NCBI GenBank assembly: GCA_030648615.1
Contig: JAUSHJ010000040.1
Location: forward strand, 1 to 64,000
Length of the DNA stretch: 64,000 nt
Direction: 5' to 3'
From: Microcaldota archaeon
Lineage (GTDB): Archaea > Micrarchaeota > Micrarchaeia > Anstonellales > Bilamarchaeaceae
Both the position numbers and the translations under genes were made by a program. This document shows, in pieces, positions 7,968 through 58,642 of this stretch (positions are counted from its first letter, which is position 1; every line of letters starts with the position of its first letter). A model generated the notes under the pieces. The model ran no database searches. It saw only the letters and a program-made list of their open reading frames with translations, and was not told the origin of the DNA.

Positions 7968-9152
7968 ATGCATTCGTTAAAACGCACAGAATCGAATAGA
8001 CTAGTTTTAGGTAGAGATATTACTGCGACTGTAGGGTCATTAAAACCGAGAGCATACGGTAAATTACTTACACAAGGTAAAATATCTGTACCAGAATCTT
8101 TTTATTTATTAGATCATGGTTTTACGGATTTTCAAACTAAGCCAGAACCTACTAAAACTAGATTATGTGAGCTTAGAAGAGTTGCTGGTAACATTTTTGA
8201 AGCAGAGGATCATGTGGCTAGAAGAGAAATAAGAAAGATGCTTACTAATGTGAAAGATGAAGGAATATTTTTGATACTCGGACATGGCGGGTCAATCCCA
8301 TGTGGTGCAGTATCAGCAAAGAAAAAATTACTTACTGATGGAATCGATGTGCATGAAAATATATCTCATATCTTAGATCACATACCGGTTGGGATACTTG
8401 GATTAAATTCACCAGAAGCAGAAGAACTAAATGCGAGGCATCAAGCAACTTTGCTTTTGGATGATTCTGAATTTAGTGCAATTATAAACGATAAACACAT
8501 AAGTGTAGTGACAGGTATATGTACCGATACCGGAATAAATTTCAACGTAATTAGAGAAAGTAAATCAGATGGTATACTAAATCCAGGTTCAGTATTGGTG
8601 GCATTAAGTGATCAATTAAAAAGAGGATTATCAACTGCCTTAGAAGAAGGAAAAAATTTACAAAAACATTTTGCACACGTTATGTTTATCTGGGATCCAC
8701 AAGAAATGGCACATGTGATGAATCCAAAAAGTGAACCTCTGGAATTGGTAGGGTTATGTTGTATCGATGGGAGATTACCTCCAAGAGTCCCAGGTCCAAG
8801 ATATATATTTAGAACCAGAGCAGGAGAAGCAGTTTCAGTTACTTGTTCTATCAATGGAAAAGTCGAATTTACAAAAGGTGAACTGGGGTCAGGTCTTTAT
8901 GGTCTAAACCAGGTTTACGGATTGGCACCAGGTAGAGATGGAAACTGGCATGTTCTTGCATTTGCTTCTAGTATGGAGCATGCTCGAATGATTAGAGAAG
9001 CTGTTTTAGAAATGCCAGAATTTGTTAGTTTGACAAAAGGTGGAGCCACAATCAGTGTTGGTTTTTTTGATGGCGAATTGTTGGTACTGAGAAATGGAGT
9101 TTCAGGTATAACTATAAGAAGACCGTATATTCCAGATACTCCAATCCTCTAG
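7968..9152 (+). CDS. Uncharacterized protein, beta-carbonic-anhydrase-like; paralog of 6650-7861
   Basis: TRLCELRRVAGNIFE ... LGHGGSIPCGAVSAKK ... NARHQATLLLDDSEFSAII ... VVTGICTD. Confidence 0.6.
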   Translation: MHSLKRTESNRLVLGRDITATVGSLKPRAYGKLLTQGKISVPESFYLLDHGFTDFQTKPEPTKTRLCELRRVAGNIFEAEDHVARREIRKMLTNVKDEGIFLILGHGGSIPCGAVSAKKKLLTDGIDVHENISHILDHIPVGILGLNSPEAEELNARHQATLLLDDSEFSAIINDKHISVVTGICTDTGINFNVIRESKSDGILNPGSVLVALSDQLKRGLSTALEEGKNLQKHFAHVMFIWDPQEMAHVMNPKSEPLELVGLCCIDGRLPPRVPGPRYIFRTRAGEAVSVTCSINGKVEFTKGELGSGLYGLNQVYGLAPGRDGNWHVLAFASSMEHARMIREAVLEMPEFVSLTKGGATISVGFFDGELLVLRNGVSGITIRRPYIPDTPIL

Positions 9153-11428
9153 TTTCTTCCTAAATTCTTTCCAACTATTTCTAAAATGTCTTTAGCTTCG
9201 TGTCCTACTTTTATTAGAGTCGTGTGACCACGCATTCCCTTGCTGCTCATTTTTGTTGTAATTAGTCCAAGCATTTCCAAATCATTTAAATATTCATGAT
9301 ACCAACGGACACTGCGAGCTCGTTTTTTTATTTTTTTACATACTAATTCATATTCTTCGTAGACTTCTCCTGAGAATAAAAAGCCTTCCATATTGTCAAG
9401 TCGTGCATATTTGCTGCCGTTCAACGAAAGATTTGCAATTGCATTTAGTAATATCTGATGGTTTTCTGGCAGTGTGCTAATTGTTTCAGCAGCAATATCG
9501 AAATCAACTTTTTTTCTTGCAGCTTCTACTTCATTATCAGTTATTTTTTTCTTTCCAGTCTGTTCAGCTATTTCTCCTGCCTTGAATAATAGCTTCAAAG
9601 CATAACGAGCATCCCCACTTTCCTGTGCAGTCATAGCTGCAGCAAGATTAACTGCACTGCTTTCCACTGTACCTTTGTTGAATCCCATCTCAGTTCTTCC
9701 ATCAAGAATTTTCCTTAACTGTTCACTCGAGTAAGGTGGGAAGACCATTTCAGTTTCGTAGAGACTGCTCTTACTTCTTGGATCTAAAGCATCTTTGAAT
9801 GATAATTTATTTGAAATTCCAACTATGCTAACTCCGCCTTTTTTTACCTCGTCATTTACTCTTGTTAGCGTGTAGATCAGTTCGTCCAAATCTTTTATCA
9901 TGTCTATTTCATCCAACACTATAACGAACTGATAATTATTTCCTATTATGTCAATAATTTTTTCATAGTAAAATGGCAATCCGAATCCTGCTTTTTCTAG
10001 TTCAGGTACAAATGGTTTAAGTAATTTCTGGAGAATTCTGTAGCGTGAATTATAAATTCTGCAATTAAGGTATACCATACTTGCGTTTTTTGCAGATTTA
10101 TTGAAATTATCCATAATGCTTTTTACTGAGCATGTTTTTCCCGTATTATGTGATATTATTCCATTTGCTATAAAATTATGGTTACCCGGAACAGTTAGAT
10201 CGTAAACAGTATCTTCGTAAGTTTCTTCTATTGCTATTATTTTGGAAGATAACAAATCTGATTTATAATTTCTTTTTAATCTATATCTATTTTCTAACAT
10301 CTCCTTTAGTTTTTCCTGCTTTTCTTTATGGTAAAAACCTATTTTATTGTAAAATTTAGTTAGATTATCTACTCGAGTTACATATAGTCTATAGCTATCG
10401 AAATACTTGCCATTGCATTTTGCTTTTTTATGTATTATTTTTGAGTTTATTCCAAATTGGTTTAGCAATAACATTATGTCCTGCAATAATCCTTTGGAAT
10501 TAGAATAATACTCTATCATAAACGTATTTTTTGATACCGTTCCATCTCCAGAAAAAAGCGCCTTTAGGAATTCTATTTGTGTTTGTTCATCACATTCAAA
10601 AATTATTTTTGGTACTCGAACAATATAACTTTTTTTACCCTTAGGGATACCTAAAAATGAAAGACAATCACATATCTTTTGGGATATTACTTCAACCTGC
10701 AAAGTTTTTCTACTTAACTGTTCTCTTCTGATAGTTGCTTTATAAGGGAATAAATCTGTTAAGTCTTTTTGAACCAATTGCAATAACTCCACAGTGTTAC
10801 TAGTATATCTTAGTCGTTGCCTATTAGAATTATACCAGTAACCTTTGCTATCCTTTGTCCGTTTTTTCTTCTGGTTTATGCTTCCATCGCTTATTACAAA
10901 ACCCAATAATCTTGCCAATCCAAAAGGAATCTGTTTTTTGCTCTCATTTGAAAAATTAAAACCAAGAAGGACATCATCATCTTTTTCTAGTTTGTCTGCT
11001 TTAGCCCATGTCAAATCTTTTAATAATAGCGGGTGATCTTTAGTTACTACCAATTCCAGACCGTTATCTAGGACTATTTTAAGTAATTTGTCATTATTTT
11101 TAAAAGTCAAGAATTTGAAGTTTTTCCATTCGTATTTTCTAGTTTTCAAATTGAAAGTTAGCACTTTTTCTGTTCCTACTATAGATTTTATTTCTTTATA
11201 TCCCTCGTTTGTCATCACCAGCGTTGAGCCTGAAACACAACCTGTTTTTCCATAGATGAAAAGATTTCTTGGTTTTCTGCCTCTTAGTGCAGAAGATACT
11301 ACCCCCATTATTTCTTCTATTTGTTGTTCGCGGAAAGGTAAAACATCTGGTACGTAGTGTGGTGAAAGTACGGAAACGTCTTTGAATATCGATTCTCTTG
11401 CAAGAATTTGCTCAAAACTAGGACTCAT
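9149..11428 (-). CDS. cdc6: Orc1/Cdc6 replication initiator with intein in the Walker A motif
   Basis: Exteins FIYGKTG / TGKTCSVKSIMDNF, VIVLDEIDMI, winged-helix C-term; intein with Cys1 and NGIISHN|T. Confidence 0.95.
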   Translation of the reverse strand: MSPSFEQILARESIFKDVSVLSPHYVPDVLPFREQQIEEIMGVVSSALRGRKPRNLFIYGKTGCVSGSTLVMTNEGYKEIKSIVGTEKVLTFNLKTRKYEWKNFKFLTFKNNDKLLKIVLDNGLELVVTKDHPLLLKDLTWAKADKLEKDDDVLLGFNFSNESKKQIPFGLARLLGFVISDGSINQKKKRTKDSKGYWYNSNRQRLRYTSNTVELLQLVQKDLTDLFPYKATIRREQLSRKTLQVEVISQKICDCLSFLGIPKGKKSYIVRVPKIIFECDEQTQIEFLKALFSGDGTVSKNTFMIEYYSNSKGLLQDIMLLLNQFGINSKIIHKKAKCNGKYFDSYRLYVTRVDNLTKFYNKIGFYHKEKQEKLKEMLENRYRLKRNYKSDLLSSKIIAIEETYEDTVYDLTVPGNHNFIANGIISHNTGKTCSVKSIMDNFNKSAKNASMVYLNCRIYNSRYRILQKLLKPFVPELEKAGFGLPFYYEKIIDIIGNNYQFVIVLDEIDMIKDLDELIYTLTRVNDEVKKGGVSIVGISNKLSFKDALDPRSKSSLYETEMVFPPYSSEQLRKILDGRTEMGFNKGTVESSAVNLAAAMTAQESGDARYALKLLFKAGEIAEQTGKKKITDNEVEAARKKVDFDIAAETISTLPENHQILLNAIANLSLNGSKYARLDNMEGFLFSGEVYEEYELVCKKIKKRARSVRWYHEYLNDLEMLGLITTKMSSKGMRGHTTLIKVGHEAKDILEIVGKNLGRN
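10145..11239 (-). mobile_element. LAGLIDADG-containing intein in Orc1/Cdc6 (365 aa)
   Basis: CVSGSTLVMTNEG ... LARLLGFVISDGSI ... FLKALFSGDGTV ... VYDLTVPGNHNFIANGIISHN; boundaries G|C and N|T. Confidence 0.93.
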
Positions 11429-17207: not shown

Positions 17208-17312
17208 TGAGACAAGATATATCTAGTCTCAATCTATACAGAACCAGTGTCACGACAATTCGTGACACTATTTGTCAACAATGTTGACAAACCAAAGTTG
17301 GTTCTGTATATA
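17208..17312. repeat. Nested/tandem hairpin cluster A
   Basis: TATACAGAACCA...TGGTTCTGTATA enclosing GTGTCACGACAATTCGTGACAC and TTGTCAACAATGTTGACAA; preceded by GAGACAAGATATATCTAGTCTC. Confidence 0.85.
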
Positions 17313-19569: not shown

Positions 19570-19815
19570 GAGACAAAGTATTCCTGCTATTGGCTATTAG
19601 TCAGTGGCAGGTTAGCTAATTATAAATTAACTGCTGTCACGATCGAGGAAACATCGTTTCCGAGATATTTGCTCGATAGAGCAAACGGAAGTGACTGGAA
19701 TTCTGTCTTTAAGAAATACTGAAGACTAGGAAGGCCATATTGCATTAGTTTAGCATTAGTCAATGGGTGATTGAACTAACTAGTTCAATACTCATAAATT
19801 ACAGTAGTAATTTAT
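19570..19815. repeat. Hairpin-rich segment upstream of tRNA-Ala
   Basis: GGAAACATCGTTTCC, TTTGCTCGATAGAGCAAA, TTGAACTAACTAGTTCAA, TAAATTACAGTAGTAATTTA. Confidence 0.7.
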
Positions 19816-22026: not shown

Positions 22027-22134
22027 GACAAGCTTGTTGCTTAGGGCAACAAGATGTCCACGCAATTGTCGAGCGCGACAATGCGCACATTGTTCGAAAC
22101 ATCGAACAATTGTGTTGTTGCAATGCAACAATTG
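22027..22134. repeat. Tandem hairpin array D upstream of gcvH
   Basis: TTGTTGCTTAGGGCAACAA; CGCAATTGTCGAGCGCGACAATGCG; ATTGTTCGAAACATCGAACAAT; TTGTTGCAATGCAACAA. Confidence 0.9.
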
Positions 22135-22548: not shown

Positions 22549-23879
22549 TGAATTATATACCTATCACTGATCAAGACGAGAAAGACATGCTCGCATTGCT
22601 CGGGTTAAAAAATATAGAGGAATTGTTTACACATGTTCCAGCTAAGCTTAATCGTGACCTTGCACTCGGAGAGCCTCTAAGTGAACTTGAATTAAAGAAA
22701 CATTTGCAGGAATTAAGTGAAAAGAATAACGTACTGAAATACTTTAGAGGTGCAGGAAGTTATTTGCATTACGTTCCCAGTGCAATTAATCATCTTATTT
22801 TACGTGGTGAGTTTTTTACTGCATATACTCCATATCAGCCAGAAGTAAGTCAAGGTACTTTACAGGCAATATACGAATTCCAAACGTTAATTTGTGCACT
22901 GACTGGTATGGATGTTGCAAATGCAAGTATGTATGATGTTGCTACAGCAGCAGCTGAATCTATGCTATTAGCAAGAAGTGAAAATGAACGGAACGAAGTA
23001 GTCATTGCCAATCCATTAAATCCACAATATTTAGAAGTGTTGAAGACTTATGCTGCAAGTTGTGGATTTGTTTTACATGAGGGTATAAGCAAATTAACCG
23101 ACAAGACTAGTTGTGTTATTGTTCAACAGCCAAGTTATCACGGATCTATAGAAGATTTAAAACAATTTTCAGACAAAATACATGAAAAAGGAGCAATGCT
23201 TGCAGTAATTATTACTGATCCTACTTCTCTTGCAATTATCGAACCTCCTGGGAGTTTTGGTGCAGATATTGTTGTTGGGGACTTACAATGCTTTGGTAAT
23301 GGGTTAAATTTTGGCGGACCGTCTGGGGGGTTTATGGCTGTAAAAAAACAGTTCATAAAGAAAATTCCAGGAAGACTTTGTGGAATGACAAATGACGATA
23401 AGGGAAATACAGGTTTCATACTTACTTTACAAGCAAGAGAGCAGCATATCAGACGTGAAAAAGCTACAAGTAACATTTGTACTAATCAGGCATTGAATGC
23501 ACTTGCTTCTACTATTTATCTTTCACTTCTTGGTAAAACTGGTTTGAGAAATGTTGCTATGAAAAGTTATCATAATGCGCACAAGTTACAAAAGTTGCTA
23601 GAGGTTAGCGGGTTTAAGCTAGTTGATGGTAGCAAACCATTGTCAGCGGGGCAAAAAAACGCTGACAACATTTGTCACGAAACTCGTGACAAATCATTTT
23701 ACAATGAATTTTTAGTTGAGACTCCAGTTCCAGTTAAAAATCTAAACGCAAAACTTCAAGACCACGGATTTTTAGGTGGAGTAGAAGTTGCAGAAAACAA
23801 ATGGTTGCTCTGTTGCACGGAAATGTTGGATGACAAGGATATTGAAAAATTTGTTGAGACCGTTAAGAGTGTGAAATAA
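22548..23879 (+). CDS. gcvPA: Glycine dehydrogenase (decarboxylating) subunit 1
   Basis: YIPITDQDEKDMLALLGLKNIEELF; FRGAGSYLHYVPSAINHLILRGEFFTAYTPYQPEVSQGTLQAIYEFQTLICALTGMDVANASMYD. Confidence 0.95.
   Translation: MNYIPITDQDEKDMLALLGLKNIEELFTHVPAKLNRDLALGEPLSELELKKHLQELSEKNNVLKYFRGAGSYLHYVPSAINHLILRGEFFTAYTPYQPEVSQGTLQAIYEFQTLICALTGMDVANASMYDVATAAAESMLLARSENERNEVVIANPLNPQYLEVLKTYAASCGFVLHEGISKLTDKTSCVIVQQPSYHGSIEDLKQFSDKIHEKGAMLAVIITDPTSLAIIEPPGSFGADIVVGDLQCFGNGLNFGGPSGGFMAVKKQFIKKIPGRLCGMTNDDKGNTGFILTLQAREQHIRREKATSNICTNQALNALASTIYLSLLGKTGLRNVAMKSYHNAHKLQKLLEVSGFKLVDGSKPLSAGQKNADNICHETRDKSFYNEFLVETPVPVKNLNAKLQDHGFLGGVEVAENKWLLCCTEMLDDKDIEKFVETVKSVK
23638..23698. repeat. Hairpin pair inserted in frame within gcvPA
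   Basis: TTGTCAGCG...CGCTGACAA and TTTGTCACGAAACTCGTGACAAA; flanked by CATT/CATT, 57-nt period (19 codons). Confidence 0.75.
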
Positions 23880-32358: not shown

Positions 32359-32379
32359 TTATTATTTGATGTGATATCA

Positions 32380-32469
32380 ATGAATTGTCCCACGGGACAA
32401 ATATCCGTGTGCTTTTCAAGCACATCTGTTGAACAAGGTTCAACATCTCGAAGTGATTTCTCGATGAAT
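32380..32469. repeat. Tandem hairpin array H at the 5' end of polC flanked by a 6-bp direct repeat
   Basis: ATGAAT at 32380-32385 and 32464-32469 bracket TTGTCCCACGGGACAA, TGTGCTTTTCAAGCACA, GTTGAACAAGGTTCAAC, TCGAAGTGATTTCTCGA; 84-nt offset (28 codons). Confidence 0.85.
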
Positions 32470-35400
32470 ACGCAAAATTATTTTATAATTCTCAAAGCCG
32501 AACTGCAGAAAGCATATGCAATTTCCAGCGAAGCTCGTTCGAAAGGTTTTGATCCTGAAAAAGAAGTAGAAGTTAAAATAGCTCCAGACGTTGCAGCAAG
32601 AGTAGAAGGTATTGTGGGTCCAAAGGGAATTGCAGAAATTATACGTAGTATGGAGAAGCAAGGAATTTCCAGAGAAGACGTCGCATTTGAAATAGCAAAA
32701 AAATTAGCTTCCGGAGAAATAATCAAAGGAACAAAAGAGCAACTTGTAGAACAAGCAGTTAGAACTGGATTGGGGATACTTACAGAAGGTGTTCTTGTAG
32801 CTCCAACCGAAGGCATAGCTAAAGTTAGGGTAAAAAATAATCCTGATGGTACTGATTACGTTGCAGTTTATTATTCTGGTCCAATTAGAAGTGCTGGGGG
32901 AACTGCTGTAGCCTTAAGCGTTTTATTGGCAGATGTGGCTCGTAGGGTAGTTGGCATAGGAGATTATAGGGCAACTGATACTCAAATTGAAAGATATAAT
33001 GAAGAGGTAAATATTTACGAATCACGTGTGGCGCATTTGCAATATAAGCCTCCTGAAGAAGATGTTAAATGGGTTGTACAGAATTGCCCAGTTTGTATAG
33101 ATGGTGATCCTACAGAAGAAATAGAAGTGAGTACTTTTCGCAGTGTTCCTGGTGTTGAAACCAATAGAATAAGAGGGGGAGTACCACTTGTTATTTGTGA
33201 AGGGATAGCTCAGAAATGCGCAAAAGTTTTCAAGTATACTAAAAAACTTAACCTTGGCTGGACCTGGCTTGAAAAAATTATTAAAGTTAGTAAAAAAGAA
33301 GACAAGGTTGATATTAAGGTCGATTTTACCTATCTGGAAGGCATGGTAGCAGGAAGACCAGTATTTGCCTACCCATCTAGGATGGGTGGTTTTAGGCTCA
33401 GATATGGAAAAAGTAGGACGAATAGTCTAATGGCAAAAAATATTCACCCTGCAACAATGATTCTTCTTAGTAATTTTCTTGCCTATGGTACGCACATGAA
33501 AATTGAAAGACCAGGTAAAGGTTGTGTTATAGCTGGTCACGAATTGCTTGAACCTCCAGTGGTAAGATTGAAAAATGGCACAGTGACAAAAGTCCATACT
33601 ATCGAACACGCAGAGAATTTGGAAAATCAAGTATCAGAAGTACTTTTTCTTGGGGATATGTTAATTACTTATGGTGATTTCCTAAAATCTAACTATCCGT
33701 TAATTCCAAGTGCTTGGTGTGATGAATGGTTCGTAAAGGAGTTAGAATCAAAAGGAGTTCAGCAGATTAACCTTAGCACAGCCAAAGACGCATTCGAATT
33801 TTCTAGGAAATACGAAGTCCCTCTTTTACCTCTATTTACTTATAACTGGGGAGATTTGAAAAAAGAGGAGCTTGGAAAACTTGCAGATTGGCTTTGTAAG
33901 GTGAATTTACAGTTAAATGAAAACGGAGAGTTGCAAGAAGCTACTATTGATAATGCCCCCGAGAAAAGTTATCTTGAAAACTTACTGGTGGAACATAAAC
34001 TCGCAGATGGAAAAGTAATTCTAGAATCGGATAATGCTTACGCAGTTCTTAACACATTGGGGTTACTGAATCAGACTATTATTAGCATGGATAAATTTAC
34101 TGCTGCATTTTCAAAATATAATTCGGTCTTTGAAATATTAAAAGAGTGTAGTGGAATAGAAATCAAAAATAAATGTCCAAGTTATATTGGCGCAAGAATG
34201 GGTCGTCCAGAAAAAGCCAAGGAAAGAAAAATGGATGGTTCCCCACACGTTCTTTTTCCAACCGGTTCACAGAAAAACAGAAGTATTGCTAAGGTTTACA
34301 AGACTATAAAAGGCAAGGATATAGAAAAAACCATTAATTTGGAGCTTGCAAGGATGCGCTGCATGAATTGTAATTCACTTACATTTTATGCCAGATGTGA
34401 AACCTGTGGTGGAGCAGCAAGACTAGAACGTGCCTGTGTGAAATGTAGCAAGGCAACCGATAGCGAAATTCACTGTGATGAAAAGACAATTATCTACGAT
34501 CGGAGACCAATAAATATAATTTCCATTCTTGAAAATACCAAAAAGAAACTTGGTTTTATGCCAGAAGATGTTAAAGGTATCAAAGGTCTTTCAAATCCTG
34601 AGAGATTTCCAGAACGTGTAGAAAAAGGGTTTTTCCGTTCAAAACACGATGTCTATGTATTTCGAGATGGTACTTCCAGGTTCGATGCTACGGATATACC
34701 TATCACACACTTTATTCCAAAAGAAATTGGGGTAACCATTGAGAAACTACGTACTCTTGGCTATGACAAGGATTATTTTGGGAATGAGCTTACCAAAGAT
34801 GATCAATTGGTTACCATGTATCATCAAGATATAATACTTGCAGATAATGGTGCTGACTATTTCATGAAAGTAGCAAATTTCATGGATGACATGCTGGTAA
34901 ATCTTTATGGGTTACAATCATTTTATAATGTGAAAAAGAAAGATGATTTGATTGGGCATTTATGTGCTGCGCTTTCTCCTCACACTAGTGCAGCAGTGCT
35001 ATGCAGAATAATTGGTTTTACCAGAGCTAATGTTGGATATGGGCATCCTTACTTTCATACTGTAAAGAGAAGAAATTGTTTCCATCCACAAACTCGTATT
35101 TTAATCGAAAGCAGTAAAAATAAAAAATACAAGATCCTCGAAGTTACACTAGAGGATATTACCGAGAATCTACTAGGTGCTAAAAATGCACGCATAAAAG
35201 TTCTGGATAATGATACTATACGAGTAGAATCAGAAGAAGAATTATTTGTTCACAGTATAGATAAGAGTTCAAAACAGATAGTAAAAAGAAAAATAAAATG
35301 TTTCATGAAAACAAAAGCTCCAGAATACTGGATAAGAATAATGACCAAAAATGGAAGAGAGATGTCAGTTACACCGGATCACAATATTCTTTGTATAGAA

Positions 35401-36360
35401 AACGGCATCATGAAATCTATAGAAGCTTCTAATGTAGTTCTTGGGCAGAAAATACCAATACGAGATAAATCAAAGAAATCATTTATACTTGAACCTATTG
35501 TAAAGATAGAAAAATTCATCGAGGTTAAAAATGCTTATTGCTTGGACATAGAAACAGAAAGCGATGAATTAGTAGAGAAAAATGTTCTATTGAACAATGG
35601 TATATTTTGTATTCGATGTGATGGTGATGAAGACTGTGTTATGATGCTTTTGGATGCACTAATAAATTTCTCAAGACATTACCTGGATGAAAGACGTGGA
35701 GGAACAATGGACACTCCATTGGTACTTAGTCCAACCATAGATCCAAAAGAAGTAGATGATGAAGCACACTGCATAGAAATGGTGACCAGTTACCCATTAG
35801 AATTTTATCATGCAACTGAAAGATTTGCATTGCCAAGCGAAGTAAAAATTAAAACTGTAAAAGATGTGCTTGGAAAAGATGAACAGTTTGACATTCCGCT
35901 TACTCATTTAGGTGGCTATATAGATAAGGGAAATATACGTACTGCCTACGTTTTGTTGGATTCAATTCCAGATAAAATAAAAGTGCAATTTGAATTGCAC
36001 GAGCGACTTAGAGGTGTTGACCAGAAGGATGCTGCAGAACGGCTTATTCTTAGTCATTTCATCCCTGATCTCTATGGCAATCTTCGTTCTTTTTCAAGAC
36101 AAACTTTCCGCTGTGGTAATTGCAATGAAAGTTTCCGGAGAGTGCCCCTTGCAGGTAAATGTTATCGTTGCGGTGGAAATCTTCTTTTAACAATTAATAA
36201 AGGCGGAATTCAGAAATATTTAGAGATATCAAGGGGAATAATAGATCGGTATCAGCTTCCAGATTATTTGAAACAGCGGATTGATCTTCTTGACAAAGAG
36301 ATAAAAAGTATATTTGAGGATGATAAGATAAAACAATTAGGTTTGGCAGATTTTATATAA
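32380..36360 (+). CDS. polC: DNA polymerase D large subunit (DP2) with intein
   Basis: YYSGPIRSAGGTAVALSVLLADVARR, IGARMGRPEKAKERKM, KRRN|C...R|CDGDEDC, RGGTMDTPLVL. Confidence 0.95.
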   Translation: MNCPTGQISVCFSSTSVEQGSTSRSDFSMNTQNYFIILKAELQKAYAISSEARSKGFDPEKEVEVKIAPDVAARVEGIVGPKGIAEIIRSMEKQGISREDVAFEIAKKLASGEIIKGTKEQLVEQAVRTGLGILTEGVLVAPTEGIAKVRVKNNPDGTDYVAVYYSGPIRSAGGTAVALSVLLADVARRVVGIGDYRATDTQIERYNEEVNIYESRVAHLQYKPPEEDVKWVVQNCPVCIDGDPTEEIEVSTFRSVPGVETNRIRGGVPLVICEGIAQKCAKVFKYTKKLNLGWTWLEKIIKVSKKEDKVDIKVDFTYLEGMVAGRPVFAYPSRMGGFRLRYGKSRTNSLMAKNIHPATMILLSNFLAYGTHMKIERPGKGCVIAGHELLEPPVVRLKNGTVTKVHTIEHAENLENQVSEVLFLGDMLITYGDFLKSNYPLIPSAWCDEWFVKELESKGVQQINLSTAKDAFEFSRKYEVPLLPLFTYNWGDLKKEELGKLADWLCKVNLQLNENGELQEATIDNAPEKSYLENLLVEHKLADGKVILESDNAYAVLNTLGLLNQTIISMDKFTAAFSKYNSVFEILKECSGIEIKNKCPSYIGARMGRPEKAKERKMDGSPHVLFPTGSQKNRSIAKVYKTIKGKDIEKTINLELARMRCMNCNSLTFYARCETCGGAARLERACVKCSKATDSEIHCDEKTIIYDRRPINIISILENTKKKLGFMPEDVKGIKGLSNPERFPERVEKGFFRSKHDVYVFRDGTSRFDATDIPITHFIPKEIGVTIEKLRTLGYDKDYFGNELTKDDQLVTMYHQDIILADNGADYFMKVANFMDDMLVNLYGLQSFYNVKKKDDLIGHLCAALSPHTSAAVLCRIIGFTRANVGYGHPYFHTVKRRNCFHPQTRILIESSKNKKYKILEVTLEDITENLLGAKNARIKVLDNDTIRVESEEELFVHSIDKSSKQIVKRKIKCFMKTKAPEYWIRIMTKNGREMSVTPDHNILCIENGIMKSIEASNVVLGQKIPIRDKSKKSFILEPIVKIEKFIEVKNAYCLDIETESDELVEKNVLLNNGIFCIRCDGDEDCVMMLLDALINFSRHYLDERRGGTMDTPLVLSPTIDPKEVDDEAHCIEMVTSYPLEFYHATERFALPSEVKIKTVKDVLGKDEQFDIPLTHLGGYIDKGNIRTAYVLLDSIPDKIKVQFELHERLRGVDQKDAAERLILSHFIPDLYGNLRSFSRQTFRCGNCNESFRRVPLAGKCYRCGGNLLLTINKGGIQKYLEISRGIIDRYQLPDYLKQRIDLLDKEIKSIFEDDKIKQLGLADFI
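35077..35616 (+). mobile_element. Mini-intein (180 aa) in DP2, degenerate C-terminal splice motif
   Basis: N|CFHPQTRIL ... SVTPDHNIL ... AYCLDIETESDELVEKNVLLNNGIFCIR|C; no LAGLIDADG seen. Confidence 0.88.
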
Positions 36361-45324: not shown

Positions 45325-45948
45325 ATGCAAATTTTAATTGTTCATGGTTTGGATAGCGATAGCAAAGATAATTGGTTTCCTTGGTTGAAAGCACAGCTAG
45401 AGGGTAGAGGTTCTTTGCAAGTCTGTTCGTCTACAGGACAAATCGCTCGATCAGAGATCTCGGTCGCTTCGCGACAGCCGTTCACTGTAGAATGTCCGGA
45501 CATGCCTAATTCTAAGAATCCAAAACAGGAAGAATGGTTAGCTAAATTATCCGAGGTTACCATGAATTGCAAAGATTCTTTTATATTAGTTGGACATAGT
45601 CTGGGTACAATCGCAGTATTGCGTTTCTTGGAAAAGACGAATTTAAAACTAATGGGTGTAATTCTAGTTGCTGGGTTTACTCAAGGTTTTGGAGTTAAGG
45701 CAATTTCAGATTTTTTTAAAACTCCTTTTGATTTTGAAAAAATAAGGACAAAAAGTAAAAAATTTATCGTAATATCGAGCGACAATGATCCATATCTGCC
45801 AATCACTGAAGGTAAAAAGCTTGCAGACAAATTAAATGCAGAATTCATTGTGGAAAAAAATGCCGGACATATTGATAGTGAAAGCGGATTTTCAAAATAT
45901 GAGCGCATACTAGATATAATAATAAAGTTGAAAATGGAGCTGAAATAA
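45325..45948 (+). CDS. RBBP9/YdeN-type serine hydrolase with in-frame insertion
   Basis: VHGLDSDSKDNWFPWLKAQLEGRG ... CPDMPNSKNPKQEEWLAKL ... LVGHSLGTIAVLRFLE. Confidence 0.85.
   Translation: MQILIVHGLDSDSKDNWFPWLKAQLEGRGSLQVCSSTGQIARSEISVASRQPFTVECPDMPNSKNPKQEEWLAKLSEVTMNCKDSFILVGHSLGTIAVLRFLEKTNLKLMGVILVAGFTQGFGVKAISDFFKTPFDFEKIRTKSKKFIVISSDNDPYLPITEGKKLADKLNAEFIVEKNAGHIDSESGFSKYERILDIIIKLKMELK
45405..45500. repeat. In-frame hairpin insertion within the hydrolase gene
   Basis: TCTACAG...CTGTAGA enclosing GATCAGAGATC and GTCGCTTCGCGAC; encodes CSSTGQIARSEISVASRQPFTVE. Confidence 0.65.
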
Positions 45949-46884: not shown

Positions 46885-47562
46885 ATGTCGAGAATGTGCA
46901 ATGGTGCAAAAATGTTTGTAGATGGCATAATTCAAAATGCTACTTCTAGTATTATCAGCCATCCATTTCTAAAAAAATTTGCAAATGGAGAAATAAGAGA
47001 TTCAGAAGTCATAAGAAGATGGGCACTTGCAAGATATTTGAGTTCATCTAAATTTCCAGAATTAGTAAAAAGTGCAATAGCGGTCTGTGGTGAGCAGGAT
47101 AGTAAATTAACTAGAGTGCTTGAAAAGAATCTTAGAGACGAATTAAAACCCATGCCACACCCGGAAATGTTTAGGAATTTTTTATTGTCTTTGGGAATTC
47201 AAAGAGAAGAATTCGAAGCATATCTTAGAATTAATAAGACCATTATATATCCGGCAAATATTATTACAATTATGGGGACTAAACCTGAAACAATCGCAGC
47301 AGTCATGCTTGTAATCGAAGTTATGATAGGCATAGAGTGTACTGAAGTGGCAAGAGGCTTGCGTACTGTTTATGGCGAATCTTTGGACTTACTATTTTTT
47401 GATTTTCATGGTGTTCAGGATTTAAGTACTCATCTTAAGCCATTCCAAAGAATCGTTGTTGATTATGCAGTTGATGAAGTAAAAAGAAGAGAAATTGATT
47501 TAGTTGTGTCACCTACAATTGATTCAAAATTGTCATTCTATGATCAGTTCAGAGTCATATAA
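46885..47562 (+). CDS. TENA/PqqC-like heme-oxygenase-fold protein
   Basis: HPFLKKFANGEIRDSEVIRRWALARYLSSSKFPELV ... LRDELKPMPHPEMFRNFLLSLGI; helical pattern. Confidence 0.55.
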   Translation: MSRMCNGAKMFVDGIIQNATSSIISHPFLKKFANGEIRDSEVIRRWALARYLSSSKFPELVKSAIAVCGEQDSKLTRVLEKNLRDELKPMPHPEMFRNFLLSLGIQREEFEAYLRINKTIIYPANIITIMGTKPETIAAVMLVIEVMIGIECTEVARGLRTVYGESLDLLFFDFHGVQDLSTHLKPFQRIVVDYAVDEVKRREIDLVVSPTIDSKLSFYDQFRVI

Positions 47563-47649: not shown

Positions 47650-50600
47650 GTGAAAATTATGTCGGAAATAATCATAGAAAGACCAATTGAAAAAGACCTT
47701 CAAGAAAGCTATCTAGCTTACGCAATGAGTGTTATTATTGGCAGGGCAATTCCTGATGTAAGGGATGGCCTAAAACCAGTACACAGGAGAATTTTATTTT
47801 CGATGCATGATCTAGGGAATCACCATAATAAACCCTATAAAAAGAGTGCAAGAATAGTGGGTGACACTTTAGGAAAATATCACCCGCACGGTGATCAAGC
47901 TATATATGATTCACTTGTAAGAATGGCACAATCGTTTTCGTTACGATATATGCTAGTTGACGGTCAGGGAAATTTCGGATGTTTTACAAAAGATACTAAA
48001 GTTGCGTTGACAGATGGAAGAAGTTTGTCATTTGAAGAGTTAATTAAAGAATACAAAGAAGGAAAAAAGAATTATACATTTACAGTAGATCGAGATAATA
48101 AAATAAAAATAGCAGAGATAAAAAATCCAAGATTGACAAAAGAAAAAGCAGAATTAGTTAAAGTTATTCTTGATAATGGTGAAGAGATAAAATGTACTCC
48201 TAATCATAGATTTATGCTAAAAGACGGTACATATAAAGAAGCTAAGGATCTGGAATCTGGAAATTCTTTGATGCCATTATATTCTAGGTTATCAACAAAA
48301 GATGACGATCCAAATATCGTAGGATATAAAATGATTTATAACTCTTCTGAGGAAAAATGGGTATACGTCCATCATTTATCCGATGAATTTAATCTAGAAA
48401 ATGGCGTCTATGCAAGAAGCGCTGGCAGAATCAGGCATCATATAAATTTTAATAAACTTAACAACAATCCAGAAAATATCAAAAGAATGGACTGGAAAGA
48501 GCATTGGGTATTACATTACAACTTGACTTCTCAAAAACATATAAATGATCCAGAGTACAGGAGAAAACTGGCAGAAGGAAGAAAACAATTTTGGAGTGTT
48601 GAAGAAAATAAGAAACTCCTATCAAAGAGAACTTCAAAGAGAAATAAGGAGAACTGGGAAAAACCATTATATAGAGCTAAAATGTCTCAAAAACTTAGTG
48701 AAATAAATAAATTATATATTGAAAATCATCCAGAAAAAAGACAAGAATTTAGTGCTAGATTAACTAACACACTAAAAAGATTATGGCAGACAGAATCCTA
48801 TAAATTAATAATGAAGGCAAATATTACGAAGGGAAATAAGAATCATACAACTAATAAAACTGGAAAAGTAAAATTTCTTAGAATATGTAAAGAAATTAGT
48901 ACTAATAGGGAAATTATTTGTGAAAAAACTTACGAAAATATAAGAAATATTCTCTATCCTTACGGATCAGCTACAACCTGGACTACTGCTTTGAAAAAAT
49001 ATTTTAATAATGATCCTAATCTAGTGCTGCAGGAATTAAATAAAAATCATAAGGTTACCAAAGTAGAGAAATTAGGTTATTTGGAAGATGTTTATGATTT
49101 AACTATAGATATTACGCATAATTTTGCTTTAGCCTCAGGAATTTTCGTTCACAATTCAATAGACGGGGATAATCCAGCTCACATGCGTTATACAGAGGTG
49201 AGAATGGCTCGTACAGCAGAAGAAATGCTTGAAGATATAGATAAAGAAACAATCGATTTCCTTCCTAATTTTGATGGTACGTTGAAAGAGCCTACAGTAC
49301 TCCCAAGTAAATTACCAAATTTACTTATAAACGGTACTTCTGGTATTGCTGTAGGTATGGCAACTAATATGCCGCCTCACAATCTCAATGAAATCGTTGA
49401 TGCTACTGTTGCAGTGATTGATGGTGCAGATGAATTGGTAGTCTTGAATATTGTTAAAGCACCTGATTTTCCAACAGGCGGAGAAATTGTTGGTAAGGGC
49501 GGAGTGTACAATGCTTACAAAACCGGAAGAGGGACTATAAGATTGCGTGGAAAAGCAGAGATAGATGAGAAAAAACACATTATTCGTATTACAGAAATTC
49601 CATACCAGATTACGAAGACTTCAATAATAGAATCAATTGCAGAATCAGCCAAGGAAAAACGCATAGAAGGAATCCGTGGCATACATGATAGAAGCGATAA
49701 GGATGGGATCGAAGTTATCGTAGAACTTTCCAGAGATGCAAATCCAGAAGTCGTACTTAATCAATTATACGTTCACAGTCCGCTTGAAACTACTTTCGGT
49801 ATTATTAATCTTGCAATTGTAGGAAAGGAGCCTAAAGTATTGTCTTTATTTAGCCTCATAAATGAATTTATAGGATTTAGAAAAGAGGTTATAACAAAGA
49901 GAACTAAATTTGAATTGAGAATTGCAGCAGAAAGGGCACACATATTGGAAGGATTGAGAATTGCTCTTGACAATATTGATGCAGTCGTAGCTTTTTTACG
50001 TGCTTCTAAGGATGTAGAATCTGCCAGAACTGGCATGATGGCTAACTATTCATTGAGCGAGAAGCAGGCTAATGCAATTCTAGATATGAAATTGCAGAAG
50101 TTAATTTCTTTAGAAAGAAAGAAGATTGATGATGAGTATGCAGAACTGAAGAAGACCATAGACTGGCTAAAGGAAATATTAGCAGATGTTGGCAAAGTAA
50201 TGAAAATCATCAAAGATGAACTGCTTGAAATAAAACAAAAATACGGAGATGAAAGAAGAACTAAAATTCTTGATATCGATGGCGACATAGTCACAGAAGA
50301 TCTTATACCTAATGATGATGTAGTTGTCGTAATCACCCAGCGTGGGTACATTAAACGAATGCTGCTTAACGAATACAAATCTCAGCACAGAGGGGGCAAA
50401 GGAGTAATCGGTGCAGAAACAAAGGAAGAAGACTTTGTGCGAGATCTCATAGTTACAAAGAACAAGAATTACATGCTATTCTTTACAGACAAAGGAAGAG
50501 TTTTCTGGCTTAAAGCATACCAGATACCAGAATCAGGAAGATATGCAACCGGAAAAACAATTGTTAGCATGCTGGATCTCAAGGAGGAAAAAGTAAATTC

Positions 50601-51360
50601 CTGGATAACTGTTGATCAGTTCAACGAAAATGAGTTTTTAGTGATGGCTACCAAGAACGGAATATTAAAGCGAACTTCTCTTATGAATTTTAGTAATCCT
50701 AGAAAGAACGGTGTCATTGCAATTACTCTGAAGGAGAACGATCAGCTTGTCGATGTGATAAAAAGTAATGGTAAGCAGGAAATGATACTTGCTACTCGTT
50801 TCGGTCAGGCTGTAAGATTTGATGAGAATGATGCAAGAGAACTTGGCAGAACAGGACAGGGTGTCATAGGTATTAGGTTGAAAGATGAAAATGACGCGGT
50901 CGTAGGAATTGCAGTATGCAATAAGCCCTCATTATTCACTATCACTGAAAATGGTTATGGGAAGAGGACTCCTATAGAAGAATATCGTTTACAAGCAAGA
51001 GGCGGTTCTGGAGTAATAAATATGAAGACCGAGGGAAGAAACGGCAGCGTCATAGGTATAGCTGGGGTAGAAGAGAGTGATGAAATAATTGTCATTACCA
51101 CTGGTGGTCAAGTTATAAGGACTTTCATAAAAGATATTTCAGTTATTGGTAGGAACACTCAGGGTGTCAGGATTATTCGTTTGGACGAAACCGCGAAAGA
51201 GAGGGTTGCGAATTTTGCAGTTGTGCATGCAGGAGCGGTAGTAGCTGTAGCGGATGGAATTAATGATGTAGAAGCTGGGGTCAATAAGATAGAGGATATA
51301 AAAAGCGAAACAGAAAATGAAAATAAAGAAGAAAATTTACCTAAAGAAGAAGGAAAATAA
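47650..51360 (+). CDS. gyrA: DNA gyrase subunit A with intein
   Basis: YAMSVIIGRAIPDVRDGLKPVHRRILFSM, VDGQGNFG|C...HN|SIDGDNPAHMRYTEVRM, C-terminal beta-pinwheel GRTGQGVIGIRL. Confidence 0.97.
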   Translation: MKIMSEIIIERPIEKDLQESYLAYAMSVIIGRAIPDVRDGLKPVHRRILFSMHDLGNHHNKPYKKSARIVGDTLGKYHPHGDQAIYDSLVRMAQSFSLRYMLVDGQGNFGCFTKDTKVALTDGRSLSFEELIKEYKEGKKNYTFTVDRDNKIKIAEIKNPRLTKEKAELVKVILDNGEEIKCTPNHRFMLKDGTYKEAKDLESGNSLMPLYSRLSTKDDDPNIVGYKMIYNSSEEKWVYVHHLSDEFNLENGVYARSAGRIRHHINFNKLNNNPENIKRMDWKEHWVLHYNLTSQKHINDPEYRRKLAEGRKQFWSVEENKKLLSKRTSKRNKENWEKPLYRAKMSQKLSEINKLYIENHPEKRQEFSARLTNTLKRLWQTESYKLIMKANITKGNKNHTTNKTGKVKFLRICKEISTNREIICEKTYENIRNILYPYGSATTWTTALKKYFNNDPNLVLQELNKNHKVTKVEKLGYLEDVYDLTIDITHNFALASGIFVHNSIDGDNPAHMRYTEVRMARTAEEMLEDIDKETIDFLPNFDGTLKEPTVLPSKLPNLLINGTSGIAVGMATNMPPHNLNEIVDATVAVIDGADELVVLNIVKAPDFPTGGEIVGKGGVYNAYKTGRGTIRLRGKAEIDEKKHIIRITEIPYQITKTSIIESIAESAKEKRIEGIRGIHDRSDKDGIEVIVELSRDANPEVVLNQLYVHSPLETTFGIINLAIVGKEPKVLSLFSLINEFIGFRKEVITKRTKFELRIAAERAHILEGLRIALDNIDAVVAFLRASKDVESARTGMMANYSLSEKQANAILDMKLQKLISLERKKIDDEYAELKKTIDWLKEILADVGKVMKIIKDELLEIKQKYGDERRTKILDIDGDIVTEDLIPNDDVVVVITQRGYIKRMLLNEYKSQHRGGKGVIGAETKEEDFVRDLIVTKNKNYMLFFTDKGRVFWLKAYQIPESGRYATGKTIVSMLDLKEEKVNSWITVDQFNENEFLVMATKNGILKRTSLMNFSNPRKNGVIAITLKENDQLVDVIKSNGKQEMILATRFGQAVRFDENDARELGRTGQGVIGIRLKDENDAVVGIAVCNKPSLFTITENGYGKRTPIEEYRLQARGGSGVINMKTEGRNGSVIGIAGVEESDEIIVITTGGQVIRTFIKDISVIGRNTQGVRIIRLDETAKERVANFAVVHAGAVVAVADGINDVEAGVNKIEDIKSETENENKEENLPKEEGK
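47980..49155 (+). mobile_element. HNH-containing intein in GyrA (392 aa)
   Basis: CFTKDTKVALTDG ... RHHINFNKLNNNPENIKRMDWKEHWVLHY ... VYDLTIDITHNFALASGIFVHN|S. Confidence 0.9.
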
Positions 51361-51752: not shown

Positions 51753-51828
51753 AAATTCACCTTAATAATATTAATATTTAAATCTATATATTTCACCAGT
51801 TTATGTCTGGTGGTTTTTGACATATTTT

Positions 51829-52090
51829 CATGTGTCAATTCGGCACGGAAACTCATGGTTTGACGCGTAACGCCGCGTCAAATATTGACACGATACGTCG
51901 TGTCAATGGATTGTCAATACTTTGTTGACAAATAGTGTCACGAATTGTCGTGACACTGGTTTTAACCTTGGGAGGAAGTGCCGAATTTACACAACTTTGC
52001 CCTCCCAATTGTTCGACGCTTCGAACAATGGGCATATTGTTGCTTATAGCAACAATCTTGTAGGCTGTGGTGGCCGAATGGGCAAATCAT
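51829..52090 (+). repeat. Two-stem structured element, copy 1, expanded by hairpin insertions
   Basis: CATGTGTCAATTCGGCACGGAAACTCATGGTTT...TTTTAACCTTGGGAGGAAGTGCCGAATTTACACAACTTTGCCC...GGCTGTGGTGGCCGAATGGGCAAATCAT. Confidence 0.85.
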
Positions 52091-58485: not shown

Positions 58486-58513
58486 CTAAGGTAATAAAAT
58501 GTTGTTTAAAACT

Positions 58514-58642
58514 CATGTGTCAATTCGGCATGGAAACTCATGGTTTTAACTTTGGGAGGAAGTGCCGAATTTACACAACTTTGCCCTTCGGCCCTAATGA
58601 AACCACAGCCTTTAGGCTGTGGTGGCCGAATGGGCAAATCAT
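58514..58642 (+). repeat. Two-stem structured element, copy 2, compact
   Basis: TTCGGCATGGAAACTCATGGTTTTAACTTTGGGAGGAAGTGCCGAA then TTTGCCCTTCGGCC...ACCACAGCCTTTAGGCTGTGGTGGCCGAATGGGCAAA. Confidence 0.85.

Follow-up and report, generated by a model that had tools for sequence, protein, structure and literature searches.

Nested palindromic elements in frame within an RBBP9-like hydrolase gene and other protein genes of a Micrarchaeota genome

The hydrolase gene and its insertion

The analyzed stretch of 64,000 nucleotides (hereafter the window; contig JAUSHJ010000040.1) belongs to a 1.65-Mb genome of 76 contigs (G000) from a Microcaldota archaeon, which was compared with a sister-genus genome (G001) and further genomes, all of them metagenome assemblies; the copy numbers given below come from genome searches plus chosen stretches. 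Immediately downstream of gyrB, the window encodes a serine hydrolase that carries an insertion:

45325..45948, plus strand: RBBP9/YdeN-like serine hydrolase open reading frame, 207 aa, the insertion host (open reading frame, Pfam, sister-genus ortholog, PDB homologs)
45412..45480, plus strand: 69-nt insertion, 23 codons SLQVCSSTGQIARSEISVASRQP (not present in L033, the sister-genus ortholog, or in other relatives)

The hydrolase matches the Pfam family Ser_hydrolase (2e-29) and keeps the catalytic motifs, namely the GHSLG nucleophile and the C-terminal Asp/His. Its insertion is in frame, free of stops and real. In the ortholog at the sister-genus locus, which shares the gene order gyrB-hydrolase-DUF with the window, the counterparts of query residues 1-29 and 53-201 are encoded by contiguous DNA with zero intervening bases, and the nucleotide gap is exactly 69. 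The segment is likewise missing in nine aligned relatives and in the PDB homologs YdeN and RBBP9; within G000 itself, a paralog (C44) has an identical gap at this site. An earlier note, made from the sequence of the window, had proposed an in-frame hairpin insertion of about 23 residues here and had named conservation of the insert among homologs as evidence against it; the homolog alignment that it called for bears the proposal out, as the relatives align without the 23-residue segment.

Two details of that proposal had to be revised. Its boundaries, CSSTG...FTVE, were shifted by approximately four residues, because FTVE belongs to the host (ITVY in the ortholog). The outer stem TCTACAG/CTGTAGA was a chance pairing of the insert with host codons, CTGTAGA being entirely host sequence; this stem was ruled out, since TCTACAG occurs seven times in the window vs 6.6 expected and the local fold is unexceptional (z = -1.43).

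Within the protein fold, the insert lies between helix 1 and strand 2. The peptides spanning it are LEGRGSLQVCSSTGQ and SEISVASRQPFTVE, with the host flanks LEGRG and FTVECPD. A single-sequence AlphaFold prediction, a weak model with a mean pLDDT of 66, places residues 36-63 below 50, which fits a flexible segment. From the conserved flanks and motifs alone we infer that the hydrolase, like the other host proteins described below, probably retains its function despite the insert.

Nested anatomy of the insert

The insert is a composite of two nested elements, a short hairpin element of 24 nt and a core with two hairpins:

45415..45423, plus strand: 5' part of the 24-nt short hairpin element, TTGCAAGTC (consensus comparison)
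45424..45462, plus strand: two-hairpin core, 39 nt, nested in the short element (covariance-model match at 45425-45467)
45424..45440, plus strand: core hairpin 1, TGTTC(GTCTACA)GGACA (sequence)
45449..45459, plus strand: core hairpin 2, GATC(AGA)GATC (sequence, fold)
45463..45465, plus strand: GTC repeat flanking the core, with its partner at 45421-45423 (interpreted as a 3-bp target duplication)
45466..45480, plus strand: 3' part of the short element, GCTTCGCGACAGCCG (45463-45475 can pair as GTCGC(TTC)GCGAC)

The short element (TTGCAAGTC followed by GCTTCGCGACAGCCG) is broken after GTC by the 39-nt core and restarts with GTC. When the core and one GTC were deleted in silico, the remaining sequence was identical to the consensus of solo short elements at all 24 positions. 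Applied to other cores, the same excision gave 20-21 of 24 matching positions for L009, the HPrK-like gene, GlmM and GatB, and at most 14 of 24 for every remaining copy. The trace left by nesting would look no different if a core had instead been excised precisely from a composite, and movement would be precise in either case.

The two-hairpin core family

The core follows the pattern NG-hairpin1-TCTCTC-hairpin2-TCG. We built a covariance model from an alignment of seven core copies that held out the hydrolase copy; this alignment was N-padded to the structure and superseded two previous versions that were not structure-consistent. The model recovered the held-out hydrolase core at 45425-45467 with 18.9 bits and an E-value of 0.012 in 454 kb. 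It counted roughly 35 cores in G000, 17 in G001, 27 in G013 and 8 in G051, a genome from another family, and at most a few in the remaining genomes. Structure-based matches to the core at E <= 1, a good many of them weak, came from 23 of 59 genomes, with a patchy distribution across Micrarchaeota. No Rfam family matched within the window at the gathering threshold. Strong hairpin clusters numbered 25 in G000 vs 0.7 under a Markov expectation (454 kb, with stretches partly picked for containing matches) and 7 vs 0.3 in G001 (199 kb).

In the seven-copy alignment, both partners changed in 10 of the 14 stem pairs and one-sided changes were absent, a count that is inflated by the padding of the alignment to the structure. 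Across 69 parsed entries, the stems contained 866 Watson-Crick, 5 G-U and 6 A-C pairs, as called by a hairpin finder that treats G-U and A-C in the same way. This parity points to palindromes kept at the DNA level.

Core copies are flanked according to the pattern NTC-NG...TCG-NTC. The flanking triplets were identical in 14 of 43 copies vs 8.4 after shuffling (p = 0.0026), and GTC on the 5' side is associated with GTC on the 3' side (Fisher p = 2e-4); both p values are indicative, because copies may share descent. By eye, an antisense reading of the DRE...SRDLSxGQTD type recurs among the cores. Four paralogous genes in G013 (L306-L309) have a core at the same place in each, and there the core seems to have multiplied along with the gene. 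One copy of the window lies between genes:

19639..19685, minus strand: core copy upstream of gcvT (covariance model)

The short hairpin element

With up to two mismatches allowed, the hairpin GTCGCTTCGCGACAGCCG has 15 matches in G000, and it is practically confined to this genome, as a single two-mismatch match was found in each of 6 out of 98 genomes outside it. Solo copies (TTGCAAGTCGCTTCGCGACAGCCG) are 24 nt long and vary in their stems, for example GTTGC/GCAAC and GACGC/GCGTC. None of the six frames of the consensus contains a stop codon, and the reading frame and orientation of the element differ from gene to gene, with several frames and both orientations represented; one conserved peptide is therefore not needed. 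Target duplication of the short element was found in 2 of 18 copies and was not significant (p = 0.27).

Short copies lie in the genes for IPP isomerase, GatA and the E2 linker (with a looser alignment there), as well as in a tRNA intron. The latter belongs to a gene that by eye resembles tRNA-Tyr(GUA) (L077:2065-2230, minus strand, contig C67 of G000), whose anticodon-loop intron contains the short hairpin and whose T-loop carries another insertion; no tRNA was called by ARAGORN in this stretch or in the window. In four further stretches (L012, L013, L022 and L107), antisense short elements give a Cys motif of the GCREATC type in DAG-rich, secreted-like proteins.

Other invaded genes

The DNA of the hydrolase insert is repeated elsewhere in G000, which supports the earlier note's view of protein genes invaded in frame by hairpin elements. 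Relatives lack the insert in the HPrK-like protein (24 aa), GlmM (22), GatB (22), LysRS (16), PurL (16) and the L272 protein (16), and the sequences of GatA and the E2 linker are consistent with in-frame inserts. Two more insertions are found in the window:

23640..23693, plus strand: two-hairpin insertion in gcvPA, of another hairpin family, in frame, 20 aa (missing in three orthologs)
32384..32466, plus strand: related core that contains additional nested hairpins, at the N-terminus or leader of polC (covariance model, sequence)

The hydrolase had been counted as the third invaded gene after these two. The insert in gcvPA is a clean one of 20 residues; the coding status of the polC element is uncertain, as it lies at the extreme N-terminus and a downstream ATG may be the true start. 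Two ATC triplets enclose the extra hairpins of polC, within a core that ends like the L284 copy.

The LysRS gene, which is highly identical to its G001 counterpart, contains a clean 48-nt insertion with GATG repeats on both sides. In IPP isomerase, one codon gap holds a short element in G000 and a core in G001, with AGTCT(T/C)GA-type repeats on either side in both genomes; no such insert occurs in the remaining aligned sequences covering the site. This pattern reflects either an insertion that is ancestral and has since turned over or repeated use of one site. Intragenic core copies have a length that is a multiple of three in 18 out of 20 cases (two rows of another hairpin family excluded), compared with 9 out of 26 among non-intragenic copies, a difference that comes in part from the way intragenic copies are defined and recognized. 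Genes split by a frame-shifting copy were not found among the examined copies.

Other features of the window

Other families of hairpin arrays, which recur in the genome and its relatives, occupy positions 22033-22131, 17246-17291 and 51859-52056, with the sequences CTTGTCGC..GCGACAAG-ATGCCC-ATTGTTGC.. and AGTGTCACGACAATTCGTGACACT; one array is located directly upstream of gcvH. A larger repeat is present in two copies (51828-52090 and 58513-58642), with near-identical blocks (97-100%) around hairpins. By eye, apparent inteins were recognized in Cdc6/Orc1 (9149-11428, minus strand), PolC (32371-36360, plus strand) and GyrA (47650-51360, plus strand). Finally, the interval from the hydrolase region to gyrA encodes a TENA/haem-oxygenase-like protein (Pfam Haem_oxygenas_2; 46885-47562, plus strand).

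Origin of the insert and alternative explanations

In our reading, which we hold with a probability of about 0.8, the insert consists of nested non-autonomous mobile palindromic elements that are translated through and persist where the frame is kept and the protein is tolerant. The 24-nt hairpin element would first have landed in the stretch that links helix 1 to strand 2 of the hydrolase, and the two-hairpin core would then have inserted into the short element, duplicating GTC (approximately 3 bp). Movement of such short hairpin DNA may depend on a trans-acting enzyme and proceed by transposition via DNA hairpins. The host ribosome would read straight through, lengthening the hydrolase by 23 residues, and copies would persist if the frame is kept and the extra residues are tolerated. 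We judge these elements to be selfish.

One competing explanation, in which the segment is a common indel or an additional loop native to the hydrolase and the hairpin arose by chance, is compatible with the loop variation that RBBP9-like proteins may tolerate and with the lack of significance of the local fold noted above. Nevertheless, dispersed copies of the same DNA were found: solo copies in the genome agree with the 24-nt part, and the covariance model detected the hydrolase core although that copy had been left out of its construction. We consider this the least credible of the alternatives and hardly worth entertaining. A structured RNA regulator or mRNA stabilizer overlapping genes by chance would account for the double-sided covariation of the stems and for those copies that lie at gene starts or ends. 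However, G-U is as rare as A-C (5 vs 6 of 880 pairs), unlike what is expected under RNA selection, the copies lie within unrelated genes in both orientations, and orthologs without copies exist; we regard such a role as very improbable.

Removal at the RNA level, through splicing of the element from the mRNA at an archaeal bulge-helix-bulge or through bypassing by the ribosome, would yield a protein without the extra residues. The sequence does form hairpins, one short copy resides inside the apparent tRNA-Tyr anticodon-loop intron, and translational bypassing of palindromic elements is known in Magnusiomyces mitochondria (PMC6649704). On the other hand, such removal would not need an open frame, so the open, stop-free frames of the intragenic copies and the failure to find genes split by frame shifts count against it, as do stems without G-U excess, and we regard it as likewise very improbable.

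Regarding the source of mobility of the nested elements, a single Y1 transposase was found in G000. It is part of an IS200-like element, and the hairpins at the ends of that element look unrelated by eye. This IS200-type transposase was set aside as a parent because of the difference in the end hairpins, and the rve and DDE_Tnp_1 profiles had no match in G000. A broader proposal, which we advance tentatively and think somewhat more likely wrong than right, is that archaea harbor hairpin transposable elements of an undescribed class. These would move as folded single-stranded DNA by means of a novel transposase, nest in one another, maintain their stems by templating and generate in-frame segments across Micrarchaeota.

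Significance and comparison with known systems

These insertions provide a natural record of sites that probably tolerate 8-24 extra residues in essential enzymes, such as GatB, GlmM, LysRS and IPP isomerase, and they point to a novel way of moving hairpin DNA of very small size. In the annotation and structure prediction of these genomes, such segments may be mistaken for native loops. The scale of in-frame palindromes seen here is known from Rickettsia, the bacterial REP cases being scattered; occurrence in small-genome DPANN archaea suggests an independent origin or a common cause. In the searchable literature, which leaves most subscription papers outside reach, we found no report of archaeal in-frame coding palindromes.

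Among known systems, the mitochondrial coding palindromes of nematomorphs are perfect inverted repeats of up to 284 bp (PMC6649704); they likewise lie in coding sequence, whereas those described here form short, dispersed families. Archaeal MITEs are known in Sulfolobus and haloarchaea (PMC10969869), and MITEs in general measure 70-300 bp and have terminal inverted repeats (PMC3733652). Our elements resemble them in being non-autonomous, multicopy and palindromic, with a possible target duplication around the core, but terminal inverted repeats were not noticed. The REP elements of bacteria are small GTAG- or CGTC-tagged hairpins, mostly extragenic with some in open reading frames, in which G-T stem pairs are frequent and which are sometimes tied to Y1 transposases known as RAYT (PMC3733652). 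The elements described here are also small hairpins found in part within open reading frames; however, no REP-flanked RAYT was found, the core combines two hairpins with a TCTCTC linker, and no GTAG or CGTC tag was seen by eye at the hairpin foot in the flanks, the ends being TTGCAA...AGCCG and NTC-NG...TCG.

The closest likeness is to the palindromic elements of Rickettsia (Ogata 2000, 2002), which are bacterial, ~150 bp long and inserted in frame into numerous unrelated protein genes (PMC10969869). Both systems place short palindromes in frame in unrelated genes, have several families per small genome and add segments to proteins, as predicted for the present elements, which differ in being archaeal and 24-72 nt long, with two nesting types, variable stems joined by fixed linkers and an apparent 3-bp duplication. 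Dispersed palindromes lying in frame within unrelated protein genes, the mark of the Rickettsia kind, are present here, and by this likeness of description, as opposed to sequence, we judge the elements to be a probable archaeal counterpart of the Rickettsia palindromic elements.
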